Positions 52,717-64,000 are shown, numbered from the stretch's first letter. The stretch: DNA of 64,000 bases from an uncultured Clostridia bacterium (GCA_948473085.1 CAOKWH010000001.1:1-64000); one strand, 5' to 3'. Program-made: numbers and translations. The notes: generated from the sequence alone by a model not told the origin.

Positions 52717-52752
52717 GAAAAAAGCAGCAGGCTCATCGCCTGCTGCTTTTTT
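52717..52752. terminator. Terminator of the minus-strand VanY-like gene
   Basis: AAAAAGCAGCAGGC-TCATC-GCCTGCTGCTTTTTT. Confidence 0.8.
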
Positions 52753-53767
52753 ATTCTTTTTCTGTCCGCTCCGGGATACCATCCTTAAAATAGGCTGTTA
52801 CAATAAACCCATCCACATTGTTGCCGGAGATACTATATTCCCCTGATGTGGGAACCGGCACTGTGGTGCCATCTTCCTCAGCAGCAACATAGTAGATTTC
52901 GTAAACGCCGCTTTCCATACCATAATACAGGTGATCCCCTTCCCAGGAGAAGCCCTTCAGCCACTCGATGTATTCCTCCATACATAGCTGCCGCTGTGCC
53001 ATCAGCGCAGCATGGGGAACCCCCACATAGCGCAGATGCCAAGGCTCAGAATAGATGCCGGTAATATCTGCCTTGTCTGGCGCATACCGGACAATGAAGC
53101 CATAAGTATGGCAGTTCTCCCCAATCCAGGAATAGACCCCCTGGCCATCGTAGTTTTGGGTCACACCATATTGGTAGGCCCCCAAATCCAACGCTAAGCC
53201 GGAGTGGTGCTCACTATGGCCTGGCCGGGCCGACCAATGGGAGGCCAATTCGACCCCCATTTGCATGGAGTACTGCGAAAACAGCTGCTGTTGCAGCTCA
53301 TAGCTGCGATAGGTGCTGATAACATTGATGCGCACACTGCCGGCAACTGTCAGAAAATCATCCATCAGGCTGTTGAGCGCCTCTACAGTTTGGGGCAGGA
53401 GTTTTTCCTGCTCGTTTTTAACCAGATAGCTTTCGCTCTTGGTATCGGAAACAACAACCAATTTTTCCATATTGGGGAATGTACAGGCATACTCCTGGTT
53501 GACCAAAATCAGGTCCCCCTGATGGACATCGTCCGGCTGCATCTGTACATAGGTCCAGTCGGGTTCCCCCTGCTTTTCGGCATCTGCTGCCAAAACCGGC
53601 CGGGTGCCATTGTTGATAATAATCCACCCGCACAGGAACATCAGCAGGCAGAAGGAGAAGCCGTTGCCGTTTCGCGTTTTCTTCTGGCTTTGTCGCTTTA
53701 TCGGCCGGGTATCCGGGTCCCATCTGGAACAGTGGGGGGTGAAATCCTGTTCCCTTGAATCAAACAT
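52751..53767 (-). CDS. M15 family (VanY-like) D-Ala-D-Ala carboxypeptidase
   Basis: INVISTYRSYELQQQLFSQYSMQMG...WSARPGHSEHHSGLALDLGAYQYG...EPWHLRYVGVPHAALMAQRQLCMEEYIEWLK; N-terminal TM. Confidence 0.92.
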   Translation of the reverse strand: MFDSREQDFTPHCSRWDPDTRPIKRQSQKKTRNGNGFSFCLLMFLCGWIIINNGTRPVLAADAEKQGEPDWTYVQMQPDDVHQGDLILVNQEYACTFPNMEKLVVVSDTKSESYLVKNEQEKLLPQTVEALNSLMDDFLTVAGSVRINVISTYRSYELQQQLFSQYSMQMGVELASHWSARPGHSEHHSGLALDLGAYQYGVTQNYDGQGVYSWIGENCHTYGFIVRYAPDKADITGIYSEPWHLRYVGVPHAALMAQRQLCMEEYIEWLKGFSWEGDHLYYGMESGVYEIYYVAAEEDGTTVPVPTSGEYSISGNNVDGFIVTAYFKDGIPERTEKE

Positions 53768-53780
53768 TTGCTCACCTTCC

Positions 53781-55052
53781 CTACTGTACCGGGGTTTCTT
53801 CCTCGGCGTCGTTCTCTTTGTCCTCCGGCCGGGCTACAGGCTCCTGCAGGTCCTTCCAAATCTGGTTGACATATTCTACACACTCAAAGTAAACCTTGGT
53901 GAGAAGGTTCTCCGGTATCTGCAAACGCTGGGCATAGGCAATTAGGCCGTTCCAATCCGCTCTTTCATAGCAGAGCACCAGCTGATACAGGTCACTGCTT
54001 GGCCCTTCGCCGCCGGTAAGTGCCGATTTAACCTCCGGGGAGATGGGCAGTTCATTCAGCGCATCCTCCAGCGGAACATCCAAAAGGGTACCCAATGTGG
54101 AGAACATACCCATCAAATAGGCCTCATGCCCCGAGATAGGCAGGTTTTCCACCAGGTTTGCCAGTTCCATGCAGAAGTTGGCCCGCTGGAAGGAAATGCG
54201 AATCAGCTCATCCTGGACGCCGTCGCTCTCTTCCCGGAAGCTGAGCAGGTAAATCCACTGCTTGAGCTGGGCAATTCCAAGAATAACCAGCGCCTGCTGT
54301 ACCGATTTAACCTGATTGCGCAGCGCAAAGTAGGCCGAATTAACCAGCTTCATCAGCGAAAAAGCCAGGGTTACATCCCGGGAGATGATGTTTGTAATTT
54401 CATCAATATCCGGCTCGTCCTTAGTAACTGCCACCATCAGCTGGAAAAAGTTGCTTTGCATGTGATCAAAGCGATGTACCTTGGACTTTTTCTGCTCAGC
54501 CACATAGCTGCCCTGCAAATAATCGCAGCCCAGCTCCTTAGCCAGTTCCAGCGCCTCCGGTGTATCCAAATGGCTGGCAACCACCTTTTTTTGCAGGTTG
54601 TGCGCCACATTAATGACATTGCGCAGCGTGGTATCGTTCTTTCTAAAATCCACCTTGATAATATCCACTGCGTCCATAATACCAAAATAACGGGGCAAAA
54701 ATTCAAAGCCAATCAGGGCAATGCGATACCCCTGCTTTTTAAACCGGTAGATAATCTTCTTTGCCAGCGGATGGATAATGCTGTTGTCCTCCACCTGGAT
54801 AATCAGCTGATCTTTAGAAAACATTTTGGGGATATTGCGCATGAGCAGGTTCGGGGTAAAGGTCAGAAACGCCTGCTGCTCGCCCAGAAAGCGCTCATCG
54901 CTCAACTGGCCCAAAAATTCCTCGATGGCATTGGCCACCCAAACATCCTGCTGTGTATATAGGGAACTCTCGTCCGCGCGATACAAAATTTCATAGGCCG
55001 AAACCTTTCCATTTTTGTCCAATATCGGTTGCCGAACAATATAAGTTTCCAT
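53781..55052 (-). CDS. EAL-like/HDOD domain signalling protein (YuxH type)
   Basis: METYIVRQPILDKNGKVSAYEILYRADESS (degenerate EAL N-domain) plus HDOD C-domain (DIDEITNIISRDVTLAFSLMKLVNSAYFALRNQVKSVQQALVILGIAQLKQWIYLLSFR). Confidence 0.9.
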   Translation of the reverse strand: METYIVRQPILDKNGKVSAYEILYRADESSLYTQQDVWVANAIEEFLGQLSDERFLGEQQAFLTFTPNLLMRNIPKMFSKDQLIIQVEDNSIIHPLAKKIIYRFKKQGYRIALIGFEFLPRYFGIMDAVDIIKVDFRKNDTTLRNVINVAHNLQKKVVASHLDTPEALELAKELGCDYLQGSYVAEQKKSKVHRFDHMQSNFFQLMVAVTKDEPDIDEITNIISRDVTLAFSLMKLVNSAYFALRNQVKSVQQALVILGIAQLKQWIYLLSFREESDGVQDELIRISFQRANFCMELANLVENLPISGHEAYLMGMFSTLGTLLDVPLEDALNELPISPEVKSALTGGEGPSSDLYQLVLCYERADWNGLIAYAQRLQIPENLLTKVYFECVEYVNQIWKDLQEPVARPEDKENDAEEETPVQ

Positions 55053-55085
55053 AAAACTCCCTCCCTATCCTTTTCCGTGACAGTG

Positions 55086-57119
55086 TTAGCTTTTATATAG
55101 GCCCTTGGGCGGACGGTCCTCGGGCTGCTCCTGAGACCAGTGGATATTGATTTGGTCCCCATACTGAATCATATCCAGATAGGACGCCCTGCGGCCGTTC
55201 CGGGTTACAATAATTTCGCCCTTTGGGTCCTGAGGGTCAATCTCCACATAGTTCAGCAGGGAAAACAGCTGGTAGCCTTCCGCCTTGGGTGTCAGTACAC
55301 ATTCTACTCCATTTAGCCAAATTTGTATACCGCCTTCTATCTTTGCAGGGGACGGCGGGCTTTTAGAAGGAATATCCACCGGGGCTGTGATCCGATCCCC
55401 AGGGTGCAACGGCATGGTACGGTCGGTACAGAGGGTCCCATTCACCATCACCTCGCCCACATTTTCAAAGCCGTGCAGGTTCAGCAGCTGTTCCACAGTG
55501 CTCACCTGCCGGGCCTCTATCCGGTCTCCCTGTTCAATGGGCCGGTCCCCCTGGGCGGGTTCATCATTCACCCAGGCCTGGGTACCGGCTGGAACCTGTT
55601 TGCCAAACAGCTCCACCTCATAGGGGAACCAGGGGGAAACCGCCTGCTGCAGCAGCAGCGCCGCGTCGGCGCCATCCACTGCAGGTGTAAAGACAATTTC
55701 ATCCCCAGCCTGAAGCAGGGTTGACAGACTGGCTACAGTGCCGTTTACCTGAATTTCAGCCAAGGTGGGCAATTCCCCCCGGGCCACGGTGCGCTGGCCG
55801 TTGTATTCATAGCGGATGCTCTTTCCAGTGTGCCCCATAATCTGCCCATACTGGTATCCACTCAGCCGCAGGGCCTCCATCACCGTCATGGCCGCACCCG
55901 TCAGGTGTAGCTGTGCATCATTCACCGATACCGTCATAGTACCGCCGCCGTTACCCACCATCTCCAACGCTGTTACAGCAATGCCAATGGGGGTGGCGTA
56001 CTCGGCCGAAAGGAACTGCTCATCCGCCAAAATCTGCTGTTTCATATAGTTGCTGCCGCCAATGGCAACACGGTTGGACTCCACGCCCAGCTCCTTCACC
56101 AGCAGCGGGCACAGCCCCGGCGTGCGGCTGCCGCCGCCCACCATAAATACCGCCCGGGGCGGGGTTCCGTTAATTTGAAGGATGCCTTCGGCAATTTTAC
56201 GGGCCAGGTTTTCCACCGCCGGCTGCATACGGGCCAGCAGCTCGTCCAGCTCCACTGTATAGGCAAAGCCCAGTACATCCTGGTATTCAATCGTGGGCTT
56301 TCCGGCGCTGGCCTCGAACTTGAGGCGCTCCGCTGTGGAAAAGTCCACCAAAAATTCCTGCATCAGCCGCTCTGTCACCTCATCGCCGGCCACAGTAGCC
56401 ATTGTGTAGCCACAGATACTCCCGCCATTTGCCACTGCAATATCGGAGGTTCCTGCCCCCACATCCACCAGGGCAACATTGAGCAGGCGCAGCTCCTTGG
56501 GCACCACTGCATTCATTGCGGCAATGGGCTCCAGTGTAATGCTGGCAATGGATAGGCCCAGCAAAGACATGGTGGCATACAGGCTTTCCACCACCCCGTT
56601 GGGCAAAAAGGTAGCAATAAGCTCCACCTCCAGGCGCCTGCCCCGGTGCCCCAGCAGTGTAGAAAAGGCATAGCCATCCAGGTGGTAGCCCACAACTGTG
56701 TGCCCCACGCTGCAAAGCTCCACCGGTTCCTCCTCCAGCATCTCCTGCGCCAACTGTTCATAGGCCTGCTGCACTGCCTGCAGCTCTAAGTTGGCCAGAG
56801 TGCGGGAGTCAATAACCTGCTGGCTGGGCAGTTCCATCTCATAGCTGATCCGTTCGGTGCGCAGCACACGGCCGGCAGCCGCCACATGAACCTCTTTGAG
56901 CGCAATACCCAGTGACTGCTCCAGCTTCTCCTTCACCTGCCGGGCAATTCGGGCGGTCTGCTGGATATCCTCAATCTGGCCGTCCACCACAGCCCTGGCA
57001 GAATGCTCCACCGTTTCGGCCTGGATTACCTCCAACACGCCATCCCGGACTGTGCTGACAATGCCGGTGACGCTGCGTGTACCAATATCCAGTATAAATA
57101 GCGGTTTTCCTGTACCCAT
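55086..57119 (-). CDS. FtsA-like actin-family ATPase with long C-terminal extension
   Basis: 677 aa; PLFILDIGTRSVTGIVSTV, NVALVDVGAGTSDIAVANGGSICGYTMATVAGDEVTERLMQEFLVDFSTAERLKFEAS, AVFMVGGGSRTPGLCPLLVKELG; extension of about 270 aa with recurring VNG...GDxI segments. Confidence 0.85.
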   Translation of the reverse strand: MGTGKPLFILDIGTRSVTGIVSTVRDGVLEVIQAETVEHSARAVVDGQIEDIQQTARIARQVKEKLEQSLGIALKEVHVAAAGRVLRTERISYEMELPSQQVIDSRTLANLELQAVQQAYEQLAQEMLEEEPVELCSVGHTVVGYHLDGYAFSTLLGHRGRRLEVELIATFLPNGVVESLYATMSLLGLSIASITLEPIAAMNAVVPKELRLLNVALVDVGAGTSDIAVANGGSICGYTMATVAGDEVTERLMQEFLVDFSTAERLKFEASAGKPTIEYQDVLGFAYTVELDELLARMQPAVENLARKIAEGILQINGTPPRAVFMVGGGSRTPGLCPLLVKELGVESNRVAIGGSNYMKQQILADEQFLSAEYATPIGIAVTALEMVGNGGGTMTVSVNDAQLHLTGAAMTVMEALRLSGYQYGQIMGHTGKSIRYEYNGQRTVARGELPTLAEIQVNGTVASLSTLLQAGDEIVFTPAVDGADAALLLQQAVSPWFPYEVELFGKQVPAGTQAWVNDEPAQGDRPIEQGDRIEARQVSTVEQLLNLHGFENVGEVMVNGTLCTDRTMPLHPGDRITAPVDIPSKSPPSPAKIEGGIQIWLNGVECVLTPKAEGYQLFSLLNYVEIDPQDPKGEIIVTRNGRRASYLDMIQYGDQINIHWSQEQPEDRPPKGLYKS

Positions 57120-57156
57120 AGCGCTCTCCCGTCCTTCTGTTCTATCTCACTTGTTA

Positions 57157-57474
57157 TCAGTCCTTCGACCATTCCTTAGCCATTGCGGCCAAGGGGTCGT
57201 GCCCGTTCTTTATCCGGTAGGACGCCTGCAGCAGCTGCACATAAATGGCGGCCACCACTTCGTAAAGTTCTGGCGGGATATTACTGCCCACCTCCAGCAT
57301 GCAGAGCATGGACGCCGCGCTGTCATCCCGGAAAACCGGGATTCCCTGCCGCTCCGCCGTATCAATGATGCGCTGGGCAACTTCGCCGTATCCGGAGGCA
57401 ATGACAATGGGCGCCATATCCTCCTGCACATTATATTTTAGGGCAACTGCCTTGTTCTTTTTAGATCTTGACAT
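57157..57474 (-). CDS. Stand-alone FlhB C-terminal domain protein (YlqH/FlhX-like)
   Basis: MSRSKKNKAVALKYNVQEDMAPIVIASGYGEVAQRIIDTAERQGIPVFRDDSAASMLCMLEVGSNIPPELYEVVAAIYVQLLQ matches the FlhB/YscU cytoplasmic domain after the NPTH site; ATG overlaps the upstream stop by 14 nt. Confidence 0.85.
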   Translation of the reverse strand: MSRSKKNKAVALKYNVQEDMAPIVIASGYGEVAQRIIDTAERQGIPVFRDDSAASMLCMLEVGSNIPPELYEVVAAIYVQLLQASYRIKNGHDPLAAMAKEWSKD

Positions 57475-58864
57475 CAATACCCGTCCTTTTATAGGGCAGG
57501 GAGCGGAAGACATCCATCAGGGAGCGGGGGCGCTCCAGCCCCTCCACCTTCAGCTCTCCTACGCGGTATTCGGTTTGCTGCGTACACTGCCGCAGGCTGC
57601 TTTTCAGGTCGCTGTACACCGAGAGATAGGCCGGCGGGCAGTAAAGGGAACAATCGATAATTTTTTCCCGCACAAACAGTTCCAGCTCAAAACGGCCCAC
57701 ACTTTCAATATCAAAGGAGAGCAGCATGTGTATCTGTTTGCCCCCAACCGAAAACTCCCGGTCGTCCTCCTCGCCGTTGGGGTTAATCCAAATTTCGGCA
57801 AAGGAGCGCATATCCTCGTACTGCACCGGGATAACATAGTGCAGCAGCGGCGTAAAGTTACAGGGGGAGGAAAGCAGGCTGTGTATAATCCGTTCCAGCC
57901 GATCGGCGCCCTGGCTTGCCATTTCCTCCTGCCCGGTTTGCCGGTGCAGAATTTCGGCCAGCACATCCATCGCCGTATTTTCCCGGCGGCCCGACTGCTT
58001 CATGCCCTCCAAAAAACTCTCTAAGTTGCTCAAAAAATTGTTGCGGGCGGTATCCCCGTGCATCTGCTGAAGCAGGTTGGACACCGATTCCCGTAAAAAA
58101 TCCCCGTTGTTGTTATATCTGGAAAGGTTATACATCACCATTTTTACAACCTTTTCGGTCTGGTCGGAAAAGAGGATGCTGTCCTGCAATTCCAGCAGCA
58201 GATCCTGCGTCTGGCGCTTTAGCTCCTCAAACTGCGCCGGGGCGTTCTCCGACCGGTACTGCCCGGCCAGGTCCGCCAGCCTCTGGGACAAATCCTTGCT
58301 GGCAAACAGGCTCTCGGACAGGAAGGACAGGCTATTTGCCACCGATCCAAGCGTTTCACTCCTGGTATAAAACTGGGTCAGAGCCTTGAGGAAGGAAACC
58401 GTTGCGTGCCGCAGCTGGTTCTGCTGGGGATAATCCTTCAGCTCCTGGCGCAGCTGGTCAAACAGCGCCCCTTTAAAAAAGGTGGAAACCTTCTCCTGTT
58501 GGAGCATTTCGTCCGCAATCTGGTCCTCCGAGATTAAGAGGTTGCCAAACATCTGCTCCAGCTCCTGGGTAAAGGGGCTGTTGTTGGCCGGAAGGAGACG
58601 GATCAGTGCCTCCATAGAGGAGATGCTCTGCAAAAAATTAACCGTTACCGAAGGGTCCTTGAGCAGGTTGAGCAGCAGGGCGGAAGCGTCGTCCTGCTGA
58701 ATCATGCCGTTATTTTGCTGTAGCAGTTCCGACTGGGAGTTGGGCTTGTTTACCCGCGTGGTATCCTGCAGCGGAAAGGCCATGGCCATATCCACATTGC
58801 GCTTAATTTCCGGCGCCTGGTTTTTGTTGACAAGAGGGGTTGTCACCCTTAATATATCCGCCAT
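57461..58864 (-). CDS. Uncharacterised 467-aa protein, possible FliK/YlqG-like partner of the FlhB-like protein
   Basis: Long Gln/Leu-rich helical N-region; C-region IHMLLSFDIESVGRFELELFVREKIIDCSLYCPPAYLSVYSDLKSSLRQCTQQTEYRVGELKVEGLERP resembles a FliK flg_hook-type domain; overlaps the FlhB-like ORF. Confidence 0.6.
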   Translation of the reverse strand: MADILRVTTPLVNKNQAPEIKRNVDMAMAFPLQDTTRVNKPNSQSELLQQNNGMIQQDDASALLLNLLKDPSVTVNFLQSISSMEALIRLLPANNSPFTQELEQMFGNLLISEDQIADEMLQQEKVSTFFKGALFDQLRQELKDYPQQNQLRHATVSFLKALTQFYTRSETLGSVANSLSFLSESLFASKDLSQRLADLAGQYRSENAPAQFEELKRQTQDLLLELQDSILFSDQTEKVVKMVMYNLSRYNNNGDFLRESVSNLLQQMHGDTARNNFLSNLESFLEGMKQSGRRENTAMDVLAEILHRQTGQEEMASQGADRLERIIHSLLSSPCNFTPLLHYVIPVQYEDMRSFAEIWINPNGEEDDREFSVGGKQIHMLLSFDIESVGRFELELFVREKIIDCSLYCPPAYLSVYSDLKSSLRQCTQQTEYRVGELKVEGLERPRSLMDVFRSLPYKRTGIDVKI

Positions 58865-59078
58865 CTGTTTTCCCGGTGACGCCCCGGCTGTCCCCCTTTC
58901 GTTTGGATATTTTTATTTTATATTCTACTTTGCGATAATTTTAGTACATAAATATATATCGTACAGAAACAGAAAAACACAAGAGTTTTGCTTGTTTTTT
59001 TTGCAATGTGGTCGAACACCTTTATTAAAGTCCTAAAATATGCCCGGACAAAATAACATGAACAGTAGGTGAAGCATA

Positions 59079-61127
59079 ATGCCAATTGATCCCAGCATGG
59101 TACCCATGTTAGAAACTTTTATCTACGAATCCACCACGCTTCTGGAGCAGCTGGATGAGATTTTGTTGGAATCTGAAAAATCCAAGAGTTTCAGTGAGGA
59201 CTACATCAACGAAGTTTTTCGTATAATGCATACAATAAAAGGCTCGTCCGCAATGATGGAATTTACCAACATATCCGCCCTGGCCCACTCGGTGGAGGAT
59301 GTCTTTTTCATCCTGCGCGAAAACCCCGGCCGCTTGGCCAGCGTAAACGAAGCCTTGTTTGATGTTGTATTCCGAGCGTCCGATTTCCTGAAGATGGGCA
59401 TTGAGTCGGTGCAAAACACCGGCGAAGCCAACGAGGACCCGCAGGAAATGATCCAAGAGCTGGAACGCCTGGCTTCCATTATGCGCGGTGAAGCAGCCCC
59501 GGCTGCCGCTGCTGCCCCTGCGCCCGCTGCCGCAAGCAGTTCGGCCCCTGTGGCAGACCCTGCCTTTGCCGGGCTGCAGCAGATTAAAATTTACTTCGAA
59601 GACGGCTGCCAGATGGAGAATATCCGGGCCTTTATGCTGCTGACCCAGCTGAAGGACATCTGCGATGAACTGGAATCCATCCCGGCACATCCGGAAAACG
59701 ACGCCTCCCTCTGCTCGGAGATTATCCAGAACGGGTTTACTGTCTGTGTAAAGCCGGCTACCACTTTGGAGGATGTTATCCAGGTTATTGAGAGCGCTGT
59801 AAGCATTAAAACCTACGAGGTTTTGAAAGCGGAGGAAGCGCCCGCAGAGCCTGCGCCTCAGCCTGCCCAGGATGCACCCGCCGCCAGCGCGCCAGCGCCC
59901 CAGCCCGCCAAGCCTGCCGCCTCTGCACCCGCTGCCGGAGCTGGCGCAAAAGCCAAGCAGAGCCTTGTCAGCGTAAACCAGGCCAAGGTGGACCAGCTGA
60001 TGGACCTGATGGGCGAATTGGTTACCACCGAATCGATGGTTGTCAGCAGCCCGGACCTGAAGGGGCTGCAGCTGGATAACTTCAGCAAATCCGCCCGGGA
60101 GCTGCGCAAGCTCACCGATGAGCTGCAGGATGTGGTTATGTCCATCCGTATGGTGCCGCTGTCCGGCCTGTTCCAGCGGATGAACCGCATTGTCCGCGAT
60201 ATGAGCAAGAGCCTGAAAAAAGAGGTGGATCTGGTTACCGAGGGCGGCGACACCGAGGTGGATAAAACCATCAATGAAGCCATCGGCGACCCCTTTATGC
60301 ACATGGTGCGCAACGCAATGGACCACGCCATCGAATCCCCGGAGGAACGCCTGGCAGCCGGTAAGCCTGCCCGAGGCAAAATTACCCTTTCGGCCCAGAA
60401 TATCGGCGGCGAAATTGTTATGAAAATTGCCGATGATGGCCGCGGCCTGGACATTGATACCATCATGCGCAAGGCCCGGAACAACGGGATGCTCACCAAG
60501 CCTGAGAGCGAATACACCAACAAGGAAATTTTCAACTTTATCATGCTGCCCGGTTTTTCCACCAATAAGGAAGTTACCGAGTATTCCGGCCGTGGCGTGG
60601 GCATGGATGTGGTTCGGCAGAATATCGAAAAGGTGGGCGGTACCTTGTCCATCGACAGTAAACCCGGGCAAGGCACCGTGTTTACCATCAAAATCCCGCT
60701 GACCCTGGCCATTGCCGACGGTATGGAAATTGCTGTGGGCGACTCTATCTACACCCTGCCCATCACCTCCATCCGCCAGTCGCTGAAAATCTATGACGAC
60801 CAGCAGATTATCTATGACACCGATGGCACCGAAATGGTTATGCTGTACGGCGAGTGCTTCCCGCTGATTCGCCTGCATGAACTGTTCCATATCGATACCC
60901 CCATCACCGACCTGCACGATGGTATTGTGGTGCAGATCGAAAGCGCCGATAAAGTGGCCTGTCTGTTTGCAGACGAGCTGCTGGGCGAACAGCAGGTTGT
61001 GGTAAAGCCCTTCCCCAGTTTCTTAAACAAGTATGAAATTAAGCGCCTGGGGCTTTCGGGATGCACCATTTTGGGGGATGGCAGTATCAGCCTGATACTG
61101 GATGCCAATTCCCTGCTGAATATGTAA
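59079..61127 (+). CDS. cheA: Chemotaxis histidine kinase CheA
   Basis: HPt motif RIMHTIKGSSAMMEFTNISALAHSVEDVFF; kinase FMHMVRNAMDHAIESPEERLAAGKPARGKITLSAQNIGGEIVMKIADDGRGLD...GRGVGMDVVRQNIEKVGGTLSIDSKPGQGTVFTIKIPLTLAI; CheW-like C-terminus. Confidence 0.97.
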   Translation: MPIDPSMVPMLETFIYESTTLLEQLDEILLESEKSKSFSEDYINEVFRIMHTIKGSSAMMEFTNISALAHSVEDVFFILRENPGRLASVNEALFDVVFRASDFLKMGIESVQNTGEANEDPQEMIQELERLASIMRGEAAPAAAAAPAPAAASSSAPVADPAFAGLQQIKIYFEDGCQMENIRAFMLLTQLKDICDELESIPAHPENDASLCSEIIQNGFTVCVKPATTLEDVIQVIESAVSIKTYEVLKAEEAPAEPAPQPAQDAPAASAPAPQPAKPAASAPAAGAGAKAKQSLVSVNQAKVDQLMDLMGELVTTESMVVSSPDLKGLQLDNFSKSARELRKLTDELQDVVMSIRMVPLSGLFQRMNRIVRDMSKSLKKEVDLVTEGGDTEVDKTINEAIGDPFMHMVRNAMDHAIESPEERLAAGKPARGKITLSAQNIGGEIVMKIADDGRGLDIDTIMRKARNNGMLTKPESEYTNKEIFNFIMLPGFSTNKEVTEYSGRGVGMDVVRQNIEKVGGTLSIDSKPGQGTVFTIKIPLTLAIADGMEIAVGDSIYTLPITSIRQSLKIYDDQQIIYDTDGTEMVMLYGECFPLIRLHELFHIDTPITDLHDGIVVQIESADKVACLFADELLGEQQVVVKPFPSFLNKYEIKRLGLSGCTILGDGSISLILDANSLLNM

Positions 61128-61154
61128 ACTTCAACTGTAAAGGAGCAGTGTGCC

Positions 61155-61631
61155 ATGAGCGTTGAATCCATTATCAAAGACGAGAACGCCGTCGAAGACC
61201 TGCGGGGGCGTTTTCTGACCTTTTTTATAGGCGAAACCTATTACGGCATTGAATTGCTGAACATTATTGAAATTATCAGTGTTCAGCCCATTACTTATGT
61301 TCCGGGGCTTCCCATTTACTTTAAGGGGATTATCAACCTGCGGGGCAAGGTTGTGCCCATTATTGATGTCCGCTTAAAGTTCTGCAAGCCGGAACGCGCC
61401 TATGACGAAAAAACCTGTATTATTGTTGTAATGATACAGGATATGCAGGTTGGCCTTATTGTGGACAGTGTTGCCGAGGTAATTTCCATCGAAGATGCAC
61501 AGAAAAGCGACCCGCCCGAGCTGGGTGGCAACGGGGAGCGTTACCTCTCCTCCATTGCCAAGGTGGATGACAAAATTATTCTGAATATCAGCTGCGAAAA
61601 GTTTTTCCAAAGCGATTTTCGCACCTATTAA
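61155..61631 (+). CDS. cheW: Chemotaxis coupling protein CheW
   Basis: FLTFFIGETYYGIELLNIIEIISVQPITYVPGLPIYFKGIINLRGKVVPIIDVRLKF. Confidence 0.96.
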   Translation: MSVESIIKDENAVEDLRGRFLTFFIGETYYGIELLNIIEIISVQPITYVPGLPIYFKGIINLRGKVVPIIDVRLKFCKPERAYDEKTCIIVVMIQDMQVGLIVDSVAEVISIEDAQKSDPPELGGNGERYLSSIAKVDDKIILNISCEKFFQSDFRTY

Positions 61632-61652
61632 AAAACAAAGGAGTTTTCTATA

Positions 61653-62522
61653 GTGGATCGTTCAGAAAATACCTCGGGCATGGCCAAGTCGCATATCATC
61701 CGCATTACCGACCAGGAGTTTACCACACTGGCCAACTATGTTAAGGACAATTATGGAATTGACCTGACCAAAAAACGCATTTTAATCGAAAGCCGCCTGA
61801 CCCCGGACCTACGCCGGCATGGGTTTACCAACTTCCAGCAGTACATTGATATGCTCTTTAAAGAGAAATCCGAAACGGAAATTGTAAACCTCTTAAACAA
61901 GCTGACCACCAATTTGTCCTATTTCATGCGGGAAAACGAGCATTTTAACTACCTGTTTTCCCAGGTCCTCCCCTATCTGGAGCGCACCCGTACCAACCGG
62001 GAGCTGCGCATCTGGAGCGCCGGGTGCTCCACCGGGCAGGAAGCCTACAATATTCAAATGGTAATTGATGAATACTTTGGCGCCAGAAAGGCCCATTGGG
62101 ACACCACCATGCTGGCCACTGATATTTCCATGCGGGTGCTGAATAAGGGGCAAAAGGGTATTTATACAGCGGACGAGCTGAAGGACCTGCCTGCCAACTG
62201 GAAGTCCAAATACACCGTTGCTCTGCCAGATGGAACCTTCCAAATTATCGAGGCGCTGCGCAAGCAGGTAATTTTCCGGCCGGGTAATTTGATGGAGCCC
62301 TTCAACTTCAAAAAGCCGTTTGATTTGATATTCTGCCGCAATGTTATGATCTATTTTGATGAGCAGACCAAGGCAGAGCTGGTCAACAAGTTCTACAACT
62401 GGACCGCTCCCGATGGCTACCTGTTTATTGGGCATTCGGAAAATATCAACAACCTCCGCACTCGCTACACTTATATCCAACCCGCAATTTATCAAAGGAG
62501 GGATGGCTTCAATGCCCATTAA
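61653..62522 (+). CDS. cheR: Chemotaxis protein methyltransferase CheR
   Basis: LRIWSAGCSTGQEAYNIQMVIDEYF...FDLIFCRNVMIYFDEQTKAELVNKFYNWTAPDGYLFIGHSENIN. Confidence 0.96.
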   Translation: MDRSENTSGMAKSHIIRITDQEFTTLANYVKDNYGIDLTKKRILIESRLTPDLRRHGFTNFQQYIDMLFKEKSETEIVNLLNKLTTNLSYFMRENEHFNYLFSQVLPYLERTRTNRELRIWSAGCSTGQEAYNIQMVIDEYFGARKAHWDTTMLATDISMRVLNKGQKGIYTADELKDLPANWKSKYTVALPDGTFQIIEALRKQVIFRPGNLMEPFNFKKPFDLIFCRNVMIYFDEQTKAELVNKFYNWTAPDGYLFIGHSENINNLRTRYTYIQPAIYQRRDGFNAH

Positions 62523-63561
62523 AAAAATCCGATTGCTGATTGTGGATGATTCCCTGTTCTTCCGGCGCACCTTACAGGAGTTCCTTTCGTCCAACCCAAG
62601 AATTGAGGTCGTTGGCACAGCGGTTGACGCCATAGACGCTATGGACAAAATTAAAAAGCTCAACCCGGATGTTGTTACATTGGATGTGGAGATGCCCAAG
62701 TTAAACGGCATCGACTTTTTAAAGCAGCTGATGCCGCAGCACCCTCTGCCGGTTATTGTGGTAAGTTCCGCACCTATCCGTGCCCTGGATGCCTTGGATG
62801 CAGGTGCCGTGGACTTTGTCCGCAAGCCGGAGATTAAAGGGCCGCAGGATTTGGCCCACTTTATGACCGATTTGATTCAAAAAATCTATGTGGCATCCAT
62901 TTCCAAGGTAAAGAATCAAATTGCAGCATCCACCCTGTCGGCGCTGTCCCGTATTTCCAAGCTGAACACCAATGCCGGCCAGAATACGGTAATTGCCCTG
63001 GGTGCCTCCACTGGCGGCACCGAAGCAACCATCCAGGTGGTGCAGAGCCTGCCGGCAGATACCCCCGGCATTGTCATTGTGCAGCACATGCCGGCTGGAT
63101 TTACCAACATGTATGCGCAGCGGCTGAACCGTATCTGTAAAATGTCGGTGGTGGAAGCGCAGAATGGCGACCGTGTGGAGCGCGGCAAAATTATCATTGC
63201 TGCCGGCGAATACCACCTTCGCCTTGCCAAGGACGCCAGGGGCTACTATGTACAAAGCGAGCGCGGTGCAAAGGTAAACGGCCACTGCCCCTCGGTAGAT
63301 GTGCTGTTTGACTCTGTGGCGGAGGTCGCCAAAGCAGATGCCATGGGCATTATCTTAACCGGAATGGGCGCAGACGGTGCCAAGGGGCTGCTTAAAATGC
63401 GCCAGGCGGGTGCCTATACGCTGGGCCAGGATAAAGAAAGCTGCGTTGTTTACGGTATGCCCATGGTGGCCTTTGACATTGGCGGTGTACAAAAGCAGCT
63501 GCCGCTGACCGATATGGCCGGGGAAATTATTCGTTATCTTAACACTAGGCGGCCATTATAA
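62512..63561 (+). CDS. cheB: Chemotaxis protein-glutamate methylesterase CheB
   Basis: MPIKKIRLLIVDDSLFFRRTLQEFL (receiver), ALGASTGGTEATIQVVQSLPADTPGIVIVQHMPAGFTNMYAQRL, GMGADGAKGLLKMRQAGAYTLGQD (esterase); ATG overlaps the cheR stop by 11 nt. Confidence 0.96.
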   Translation: MPIKKIRLLIVDDSLFFRRTLQEFLSSNPRIEVVGTAVDAIDAMDKIKKLNPDVVTLDVEMPKLNGIDFLKQLMPQHPLPVIVVSSAPIRALDALDAGAVDFVRKPEIKGPQDLAHFMTDLIQKIYVASISKVKNQIAASTLSALSRISKLNTNAGQNTVIALGASTGGTEATIQVVQSLPADTPGIVIVQHMPAGFTNMYAQRLNRICKMSVVEAQNGDRVERGKIIIAAGEYHLRLAKDARGYYVQSERGAKVNGHCPSVDVLFDSVAEVAKADAMGIILTGMGADGAKGLLKMRQAGAYTLGQDKESCVVYGMPMVAFDIGGVQKQLPLTDMAGEIIRYLNTRRPL

Positions 63562-63638: not shown

Positions 63639-64000
63639 TTAGAAAACCCATTCGCCGCGGTTGGCCGATTTTACAAGCATCTGCCCATTTTCCGCATTGA
63701 AATAAACGGTTCTGCCATAATCCTTGCCAGTGTCATCTGCAATAATAGGAATGCCCAGCCTGCCCAGCTCGGCCTTTACAGCCGCTACATTGCGCTGCCC
63801 AATATTGGATAGATTCCCCCCTTTGAAATTGGAGAACATCCTGGCGCCGCCCGCAATTTTGGCTGTCAGCCTGCGGCGGCTTGCACCAGCCGCCACCATA
63901 CGCTGAACCAGTATTTCCAAAGCCTTATCCGCATAGCAATACGGCCGGTCGTTTTTTCCCTGCTCGCTTGTAGGCAGCATAATGTGGGAAAGCCCTGCAA
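63639..64000 (-). CDS. cheD: Chemoreceptor glutamine deamidase CheD (N-terminus beyond the window)
   Basis: GLSHIMLPTSEQGKNDRPYCYADKALEILVQRMVAAGASRRRLTAKIAGGARMFSNFKGGNLSNIGQRNVAAVKAELGRLGIPIIADDTGKDYGRTVYFNAENGQMLVK; reading frame continues past position 64000. Confidence 0.95.
   Translation of the reverse strand, partial: AGLSHIMLPTSEQGKNDRPYCYADKALEILVQRMVAAGASRRRLTAKIAGGARMFSNFKGGNLSNIGQRNVAAVKAELGRLGIPIIADDTGKDYGRTVYFNAENGQMLVKSANRGEWVF

Follow-up and report, generated by a model that had tools for sequence, protein, structure and literature searches.

The window, a 64,000-nucleotide stretch of DNA from an uncultured Clostridia bacterium (GCA_948473085.1, CAOKWH010000001.1:1-64000), contains a minus-strand operon that faces a plus-strand cheA-cheW-cheR-cheB cluster (59079..63561) across an A+T-rich divergent intergenic region (58865..59078), in which no sigma-D-type promoter consensus is found. 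A preliminary description of this DNA had placed four minus-strand genes at 53781-58864, divergent from the chemotaxis operon, and all four are open frames at these positions. They encode P467 (57461..58864), a 467-aa protein with a disordered N-terminus, a helical middle and a C-domain that resembles T3S4 domains; FlhX (57157..57474), a 105-aa stand-alone FlhB cytoplasmic (post-cleavage) domain; a 677-aa FtsA-like actin-fold ATPase with a C-terminal beta-grasp extension (55086..57119); and a degenerate EAL-HDOD protein (53781..55052). Two further features had been overlooked. A fifth, co-directional gene on the minus strand (52751..53767), 13 nt downstream of the EAL/HDOD gene, encodes a VanY-type D-Ala-D-Ala carboxypeptidase (Pfam VanY, 2.9e-33) with a signal-like N-terminus, and a strong palindromic terminator with a 15-pair stem and T-runs at both sides (52718..52752) closes the operon between this gene and gltX. 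At the other end of the window, an ORF listed as cheD (63639-63980, minus strand) is cut by the window end, and a longer frame of 181 codons is open in locus L103.

The left portion of a fla/che cluster lies in the window, and the cluster continues past cheA-W-R-B with cheC/D, flgF/G-type genes, flhA, flhB, fliRQP, fliY/M, motBA, flgE, flgD and fliK (flhB and fliK named by family match, the others by recognition of sequence and order). The normal flhB of the organism lies at G000:C1:69227-70249, in the same cluster as the P467-FlhX operon, and its normal fliK lies at 80494-81597 of the same contig within fliEFGHIJK. As the cluster has its own flhB and fliK elsewhere, P467 and FlhX constitute an additional, detached FliK/FlhB-C pair.

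Export switching in flagella is controlled by FliK together with the C-terminal domain of FlhB, and how the two flip the specificity of export is an old question. Detached FlhB C-domains, termed FlhX, are known in Helicobacter, Campylobacterota, Actinobacteria and Bacillus (YlqH). The FlhX of the window matches Pfam Bac_export_2 (PF01312) above the cut-off (E 1.9e-17) at profile positions 262-332, which cover the cytoplasmic domain only and no membrane part. Its match to TIGR00789 (E 2.9e-26, 91.5 bits) is under the curated cut-off of 117.35, so that the assignment is based on PF01312 and on alignment. The ORF comprises 118 codons, with 105 aa counted from the likely true ATG at 57474. The protein had been described as starting past the NPTH autocleavage site, and this is borne out by an alignment of FlhX proteins, in which it lacks NPTH and starts at the position equivalent to that in the organism's own FlhB (own FlhB IRNPTHFAVAIKYD, FlhX MSRSKKNKAVALKYN). 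As P467 ends at 57461, the stop of one gene and the start of the other overlap by exactly 14 nt (57461..57474, minus strand), also as described, and this overlap is likely to couple their translation. As a stand-alone FlhB cytoplasmic domain that starts just past the cleavage site and co-occurs with full-length FlhB, the protein is of the known FlhX type (Helicobacter pylori HP1575, Bacillus YlqH, TIGR00789 flhB_rel). It differs from this type in its score below the TIGR00789 cut-off, in its overlap with a FliK-like gene, in its position at the cheA divergent junction and in sharing an operon with an ATPase and an HDOD protein. FlhX is reckoned a flagellar component in studies of Actinobacteria and Campylobacterota (PMC10746217, PMC9321776), and flhX-fliK gene adjacency is mentioned in one of these (PMC9321776). 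Neither FlhX nor its pairing with FliK is new, and the earlier suggestion of an undescribed system does not hold for FlhX; it is a better fit for the divergent P467 branch with its overlap and for the attached FtsA-like ATPase, of which no description was found in the open-access literature. In one genome, an apparent mobile element abuts flhX; its serine-recombinase-type gene (L282:3218-4570) has its end directly at the 3′ end of flhX.

The FliK-like C-region earlier ascribed to P467 is invisible to single-sequence HMM searches, which returned nothing significant from Pfam or NCBIfam and no Flg_hook (PF02120) match, and it emerges from family profiles, structure prediction and a tail motif. 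A P467 homologue in locus L088 matches Flg_hook weakly (0.0066), FlhX partners in other Clostridia match it clearly (best 2.9e-11), and the P467 C-terminal profile aligns with that of these partners (hhalign 94%, E 1.8e-7; unrelated control families below 3%). Comparison with the true FliK proteins of the P467-bearing genomes gave no direct signal, a weak negative given that some FliK ORFs in the profile were mis-called. The T3S4/FliK-C-like domain spans residues ~338-445 (57530..57853, minus strand); in the AlphaFold model, strands and a helix are predicted at 341-442 with pLDDT of ~70-85, and the model is poor outside this domain and parts of the helical region. The best Foldseek match of the domain among 350,542 PDB chains is 5cuk, the SS (substrate-specificity-switch) domain of PscP, with a probability of 1.00, an E-value of only 0.013 and a TM-score of 0.52 by target. 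The protein ends in the FliK-type pentapeptide IDVKI (57464..57478, minus strand), and the tail GIDVKI resembles those of the organism's own FliK (GLDAYI) and E. coli FliK (GVDIFA). The last five residues follow a hydrophobic-[DN]-x-x-hydrophobic pattern in 27/27 P467-type proteins, 13/13 YlqG-type proteins and 11/18 true FliK proteins, against a background of 0.6-2% (1.3% for the P467-type comparison). This motif is partly confounded by the overlap, which places the FlhX ATG inside the D-V codons of P467 in overlapped pairs. As it is kept in the non-overlapped members (L085, L091, L099, L208 and L210) and in all YlqG-type partners, it is not solely a by-product of the overlapping ATG. The modelled C-domain fold, the profile link to Flg_hook-matching FlhX partners and the tail motif together support the view that P467 is FliK-like.

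Compared with T3S4 switch proteins of the FliK and PscP-YscP type (PF02120), P467 shares the predicted strand-helix order of the C-domain, the top fold match, the terminal hydrophobic-D-x-x-hydrophobic tail (VDIFA in E. coli FliK) and the pairing with an FlhB C-domain, and differs in a sequence that falls outside PF02120, in its helical middle region and in the presence of a true fliK in the same genome. A homologue of 881 aa (L091:2424-5069) has a helical region that is apparently duplicated internally. The closest precedent for the pair are the YlqG-YlqH-type bicistrons of Bacillus, in which a FliK-like gene also lies directly upstream of FlhX and which are kept in flagellated Clostridia at a locus of the rbgA-rnhB-ylqG-ylqH-yraN type. 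In contrast, the P467-FlhX pair has a cheA-junction locus, an overlapping stop and start, a divergent P467 subfamily, and an FtsA-like ATPase gene and cyclic-dinucleotide receptor genes attached to it. Evolved swarm clones of B. subtilis carry ylqG P457Q among several mutations, and the change is left out of the evidence here.

The gene order of the P467-FlhX locus is conserved far beyond chance. The order cheBRWA< >P467-FlhX-(ComFB)-(PilZ)-FtsA-like-(EAL/HDOD) recurs across genera, with insertions, and is found in Angelakisella, Anaerotruncus colihominis, a Subdoligranulum MAG and others; Sedimentibacter hydroxybenzoicus keeps it as well, with PilZ and ComFB genes after the ATPase. At most P467-type loci cheA flanks P467 head to head, and most P467-type pairs, including that of Sedimentibacter, have the exact 14-nt overlap. 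The preliminary description had proposed conserved synteny and a comparison of flagellated with non-flagellated species as checks, and the second agrees with the first: in 61 related genomes, FlhX is present in 19/20 with FlhB and 0/41 without it, as raw counts that, like the other co-occurrence counts given here, ignore kinship among genomes. Of the 19 FlhX-positive genomes, 17 have a P467 homologue immediately upstream of FlhX (16/19 when only the other flagellated relatives are counted), and in the remaining two (G037 and G041) the gene upstream of FlhX matches Flg_hook (1.2e-6 and 2e-5). Sporulation was considered as the source of the FlhX and FtsA-like pattern and rejected for this set; the sporulation marker SpoIVA occurs in 57/61 relatives and is thus so nearly universal that the pattern does not track it. 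One genome of the same genus without FlhB has a truncated flagellar cluster (L292, G001:C1:203000-218000) of which only fliE-fliK is kept, after which come a hemerythrin-like gene and one of VanY type that shares 37% identity with that of the window; the distal cluster including the P467-FlhX module is therefore gone there.

The third protein of the operon had been described as an FtsA-like ATPase with a C-terminal extension, and both sequence and model agree. It has FtsA, PilM and ThiS matches in Pfam and NCBIfam, and an AlphaFold model built from 66 homologues reaches a pLDDT of 90.5. The first ~390 residues have the FtsA fold, with FtsA as the best structural matches (Foldseek best 1.1e-28; TM-score by target 0.82-0.87 for the best matches), and the motifs of the ATP site, including those for phosphate and adenosine, are invariant in the 66 homologues (D11-T14, the D219-D226 region and G328-G329). 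The extension (residues ~390-665; 55125..55952, minus strand) contains repeated ThiS/ubiquitin-like stretches (Pfam ThiS 1.5e-9 in two stretches, and S4), modelled as strands with pLDDT mostly above 85. Unlike FtsA (TIGR01174, PF14450), the modelled protein has no C-terminal amphipathic membrane helix and instead carries ~275 residues of beta-grasp-like domains, ending in strands and a disordered tail. Its identity as the cell-division FtsA was rejected, as it scores 91.5 bits against TIGR01174, under the cut-off of 175.85, and is absent from all 41 non-flagellated relatives, which must divide; none of the 61 relatives has a canonical FtsA above that cut-off. PilM and EutJ belong to the same actin-fold superfamily by profile and fold, but the match to them is weaker than to FtsA, and no pilN, pilO or pilQ neighbours were seen on inspection of the window and the loci of relatives.

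In the class Clostridia, 86/342 genomes carry the FtsA-like gene, all of them among the 138 with a PF01312 match, which in one fragmented genome (G257) is only weak and of FlhX strength. Carriers comprise 84/105 FlhX-positive genomes (G257 counted among them) versus 2/33 FlhX-negative genomes. Within the family, the gene adjoins FlhX in only 7/11 carriers and has other neighbours elsewhere. A constant flagellar neighbourhood was not found beyond P467-type loci, and sigma-factor matches near the gene outside the P467 locus are probably rpoD. No literature on this FtsA-like protein together with flagella in Clostridium was found among open-access papers.

The fourth gene is, as described, a degenerate EAL/HDOD gene (Pfam EAL 1.5e-13, HDOD 1.3e-21), in which the DDFGTG-type motif is missing on inspection, and it adjoins the FtsA-like gene also in L201, L204, L208 and L210. 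Among the neighbour families checked (PilZ, ComFB, EAL/HDOD and VanY), VanY-type genes lie beside the cluster in L086 and L090 too. Genes for PilZ proteins and for the ComFB family of cyclic-dinucleotide receptors (PMC12313861) are absent from the operon of the window and occur in or near the operon in relatives (L088:3862-4170, L089:6417-6722 and L233:14489-14761).

The preliminary description had offered two readings, an accessory flagellar export control module or a distinct chemotaxis-controlled surface apparatus. The former is favored by the tracking of FlhX and P467 with the flagellum and by the FliK switch-domain features of P467. It also withstood two of the refuting conditions set out beforehand, a lack of conserved synteny and a C-region with no relation to FliK. 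In the form given here, a module accessory to the flagellar type III export apparatus that switches its specificity, with docking by FlhX, unloading by P467 and control by the ATPase, we consider it about evenly balanced between right and wrong. FlhX would correspond to the FlhB cytoplasmic domain as it is after cleavage, and P467, translated from the same mRNA through the coupling, would be a second switch protein of the FliK type. The last five residues of FliK have been proposed to act on the FlhB C-domain, and this domain to be ejected (PMC13344023). FlhX would most likely dock on the export gate and replace the FlhB C-domain ejected by the normal FliK at hook completion. By analogy with FliK and FlhB-C, P467 would contact FlhX and remove or reposition it through its T3S4 domain and C-terminal pentapeptide, so that the pair would reset or retune the early or late export state. 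The FtsA-like ATPase would probably provide nucleotide- and cyclic-dinucleotide-responsive, envelope-linked control, together with EAL-HDOD and, in relatives, the PilZ and ComFB neighbours, and VanY may trim the peptidoglycan where assembly takes place.

An ordinary YlqG/YlqH-type pair is a rival reading, in which FlhX is a backup for the FlhB C-domain, P467 a divergent FliK-like partner with mild redundancy, and the ATPase, HDOD and VanY genes mere operon passengers. It agrees with the occurrence of FliK-like/FlhX bicistrons at housekeeping loci in other Clostridia, with the lack of linkage of the ATPase gene in many genomes and with the title of a report that calls H. pylori FlhX (HP1575) a "spare part" (Wand 2006, as cited in PMC3040844). 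However, the P467-FlhX-FtsA-like order is kept in lineages as distant as Sedimentibacter, the FtsA-like gene is strongly associated with FlhX-positive genomes, and a redundant spare should have disappeared from more than 1/20 genomes, and we regard the backup reading as rather unlikely. A distinct chemotaxis-controlled surface or secretion apparatus was suggested by the combination of an FtsA/PilM-fold ATPase, an FlhB-like protein and chemotaxis genes, and is very improbable: no extra export gate, pilin, rod or needle genes, nor other secretion or structural genes, accompany the operon or its relatives, FlhX is found only alongside FlhB (one fragmented genome excepted), and the FlhX partner genes of other Clostridia are located at ordinary housekeeping loci.

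A further alternative covers the ATPase alone and fits either reading of the P467-FlhX pair, namely that the FtsA-like protein, as an ATPase of the FtsA/PilM type, serves the envelope or morphogenesis of Bacillota in general and takes no direct part in the flagellum, the flagellar correlation reflecting lineage history or shared loss. A strictly flagellar distribution was rejected at the phylum level, where 209/220 carriers in a sample of 399 genomes have FlhB and 11 do not, so the link to flagella is not absolute; conversely, the gene is missing in 120/329 flagellated genomes of this sample. In several FlhB-less carriers it adjoins the ATP synthase (atp) operon, and in most of the FlhB-less Bacillota loci L308-L313 and L316 it lies between glyA-upp-comEB and that operon, a placement suggesting a role apart from flagella; spoIID-like and mbl-like genes are its neighbours in other cases. 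Against a general envelope function stand the exclusively flagellar carriers of the class Clostridia, the absence of the gene from non-flagellated relatives that nearly all keep SpoIVA, and its separation from division FtsA. The link of the FtsA-like gene with flagella is strong and not absolute, with neighbourhood linkage confined to P467-type loci, and we rate the envelope function of the ATPase as a serious possibility, a little short of an even chance.

Returning to the accessory switch module, its boldest version is a resettable second export switch in flagellated Clostridia. A dedicated FliK-like protein would put a free FlhB C-domain in place and take it off again, with energy or gating from a hitherto unrecognised FtsA-like ATPase that carries ubiquitin-like domains, and cyclic-dinucleotide receptors would tune the process. 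Flagellar assembly could then resume or pause beyond a switch that is normally irreversible; we think this version improbable. An operon encoding a detached FlhB C-domain and an apparent second FliK-type tail, coupled by an overlap, would provide a natural test of the FlhB-ejection idea (PMC13344023). The FtsA-like family, in Clostridia found only in genomes that have flagellar export genes, may be a flagellum-associated protein so far overlooked in many cultured species, including those of Clostridium, Sedimentibacter and Anaerotruncus.
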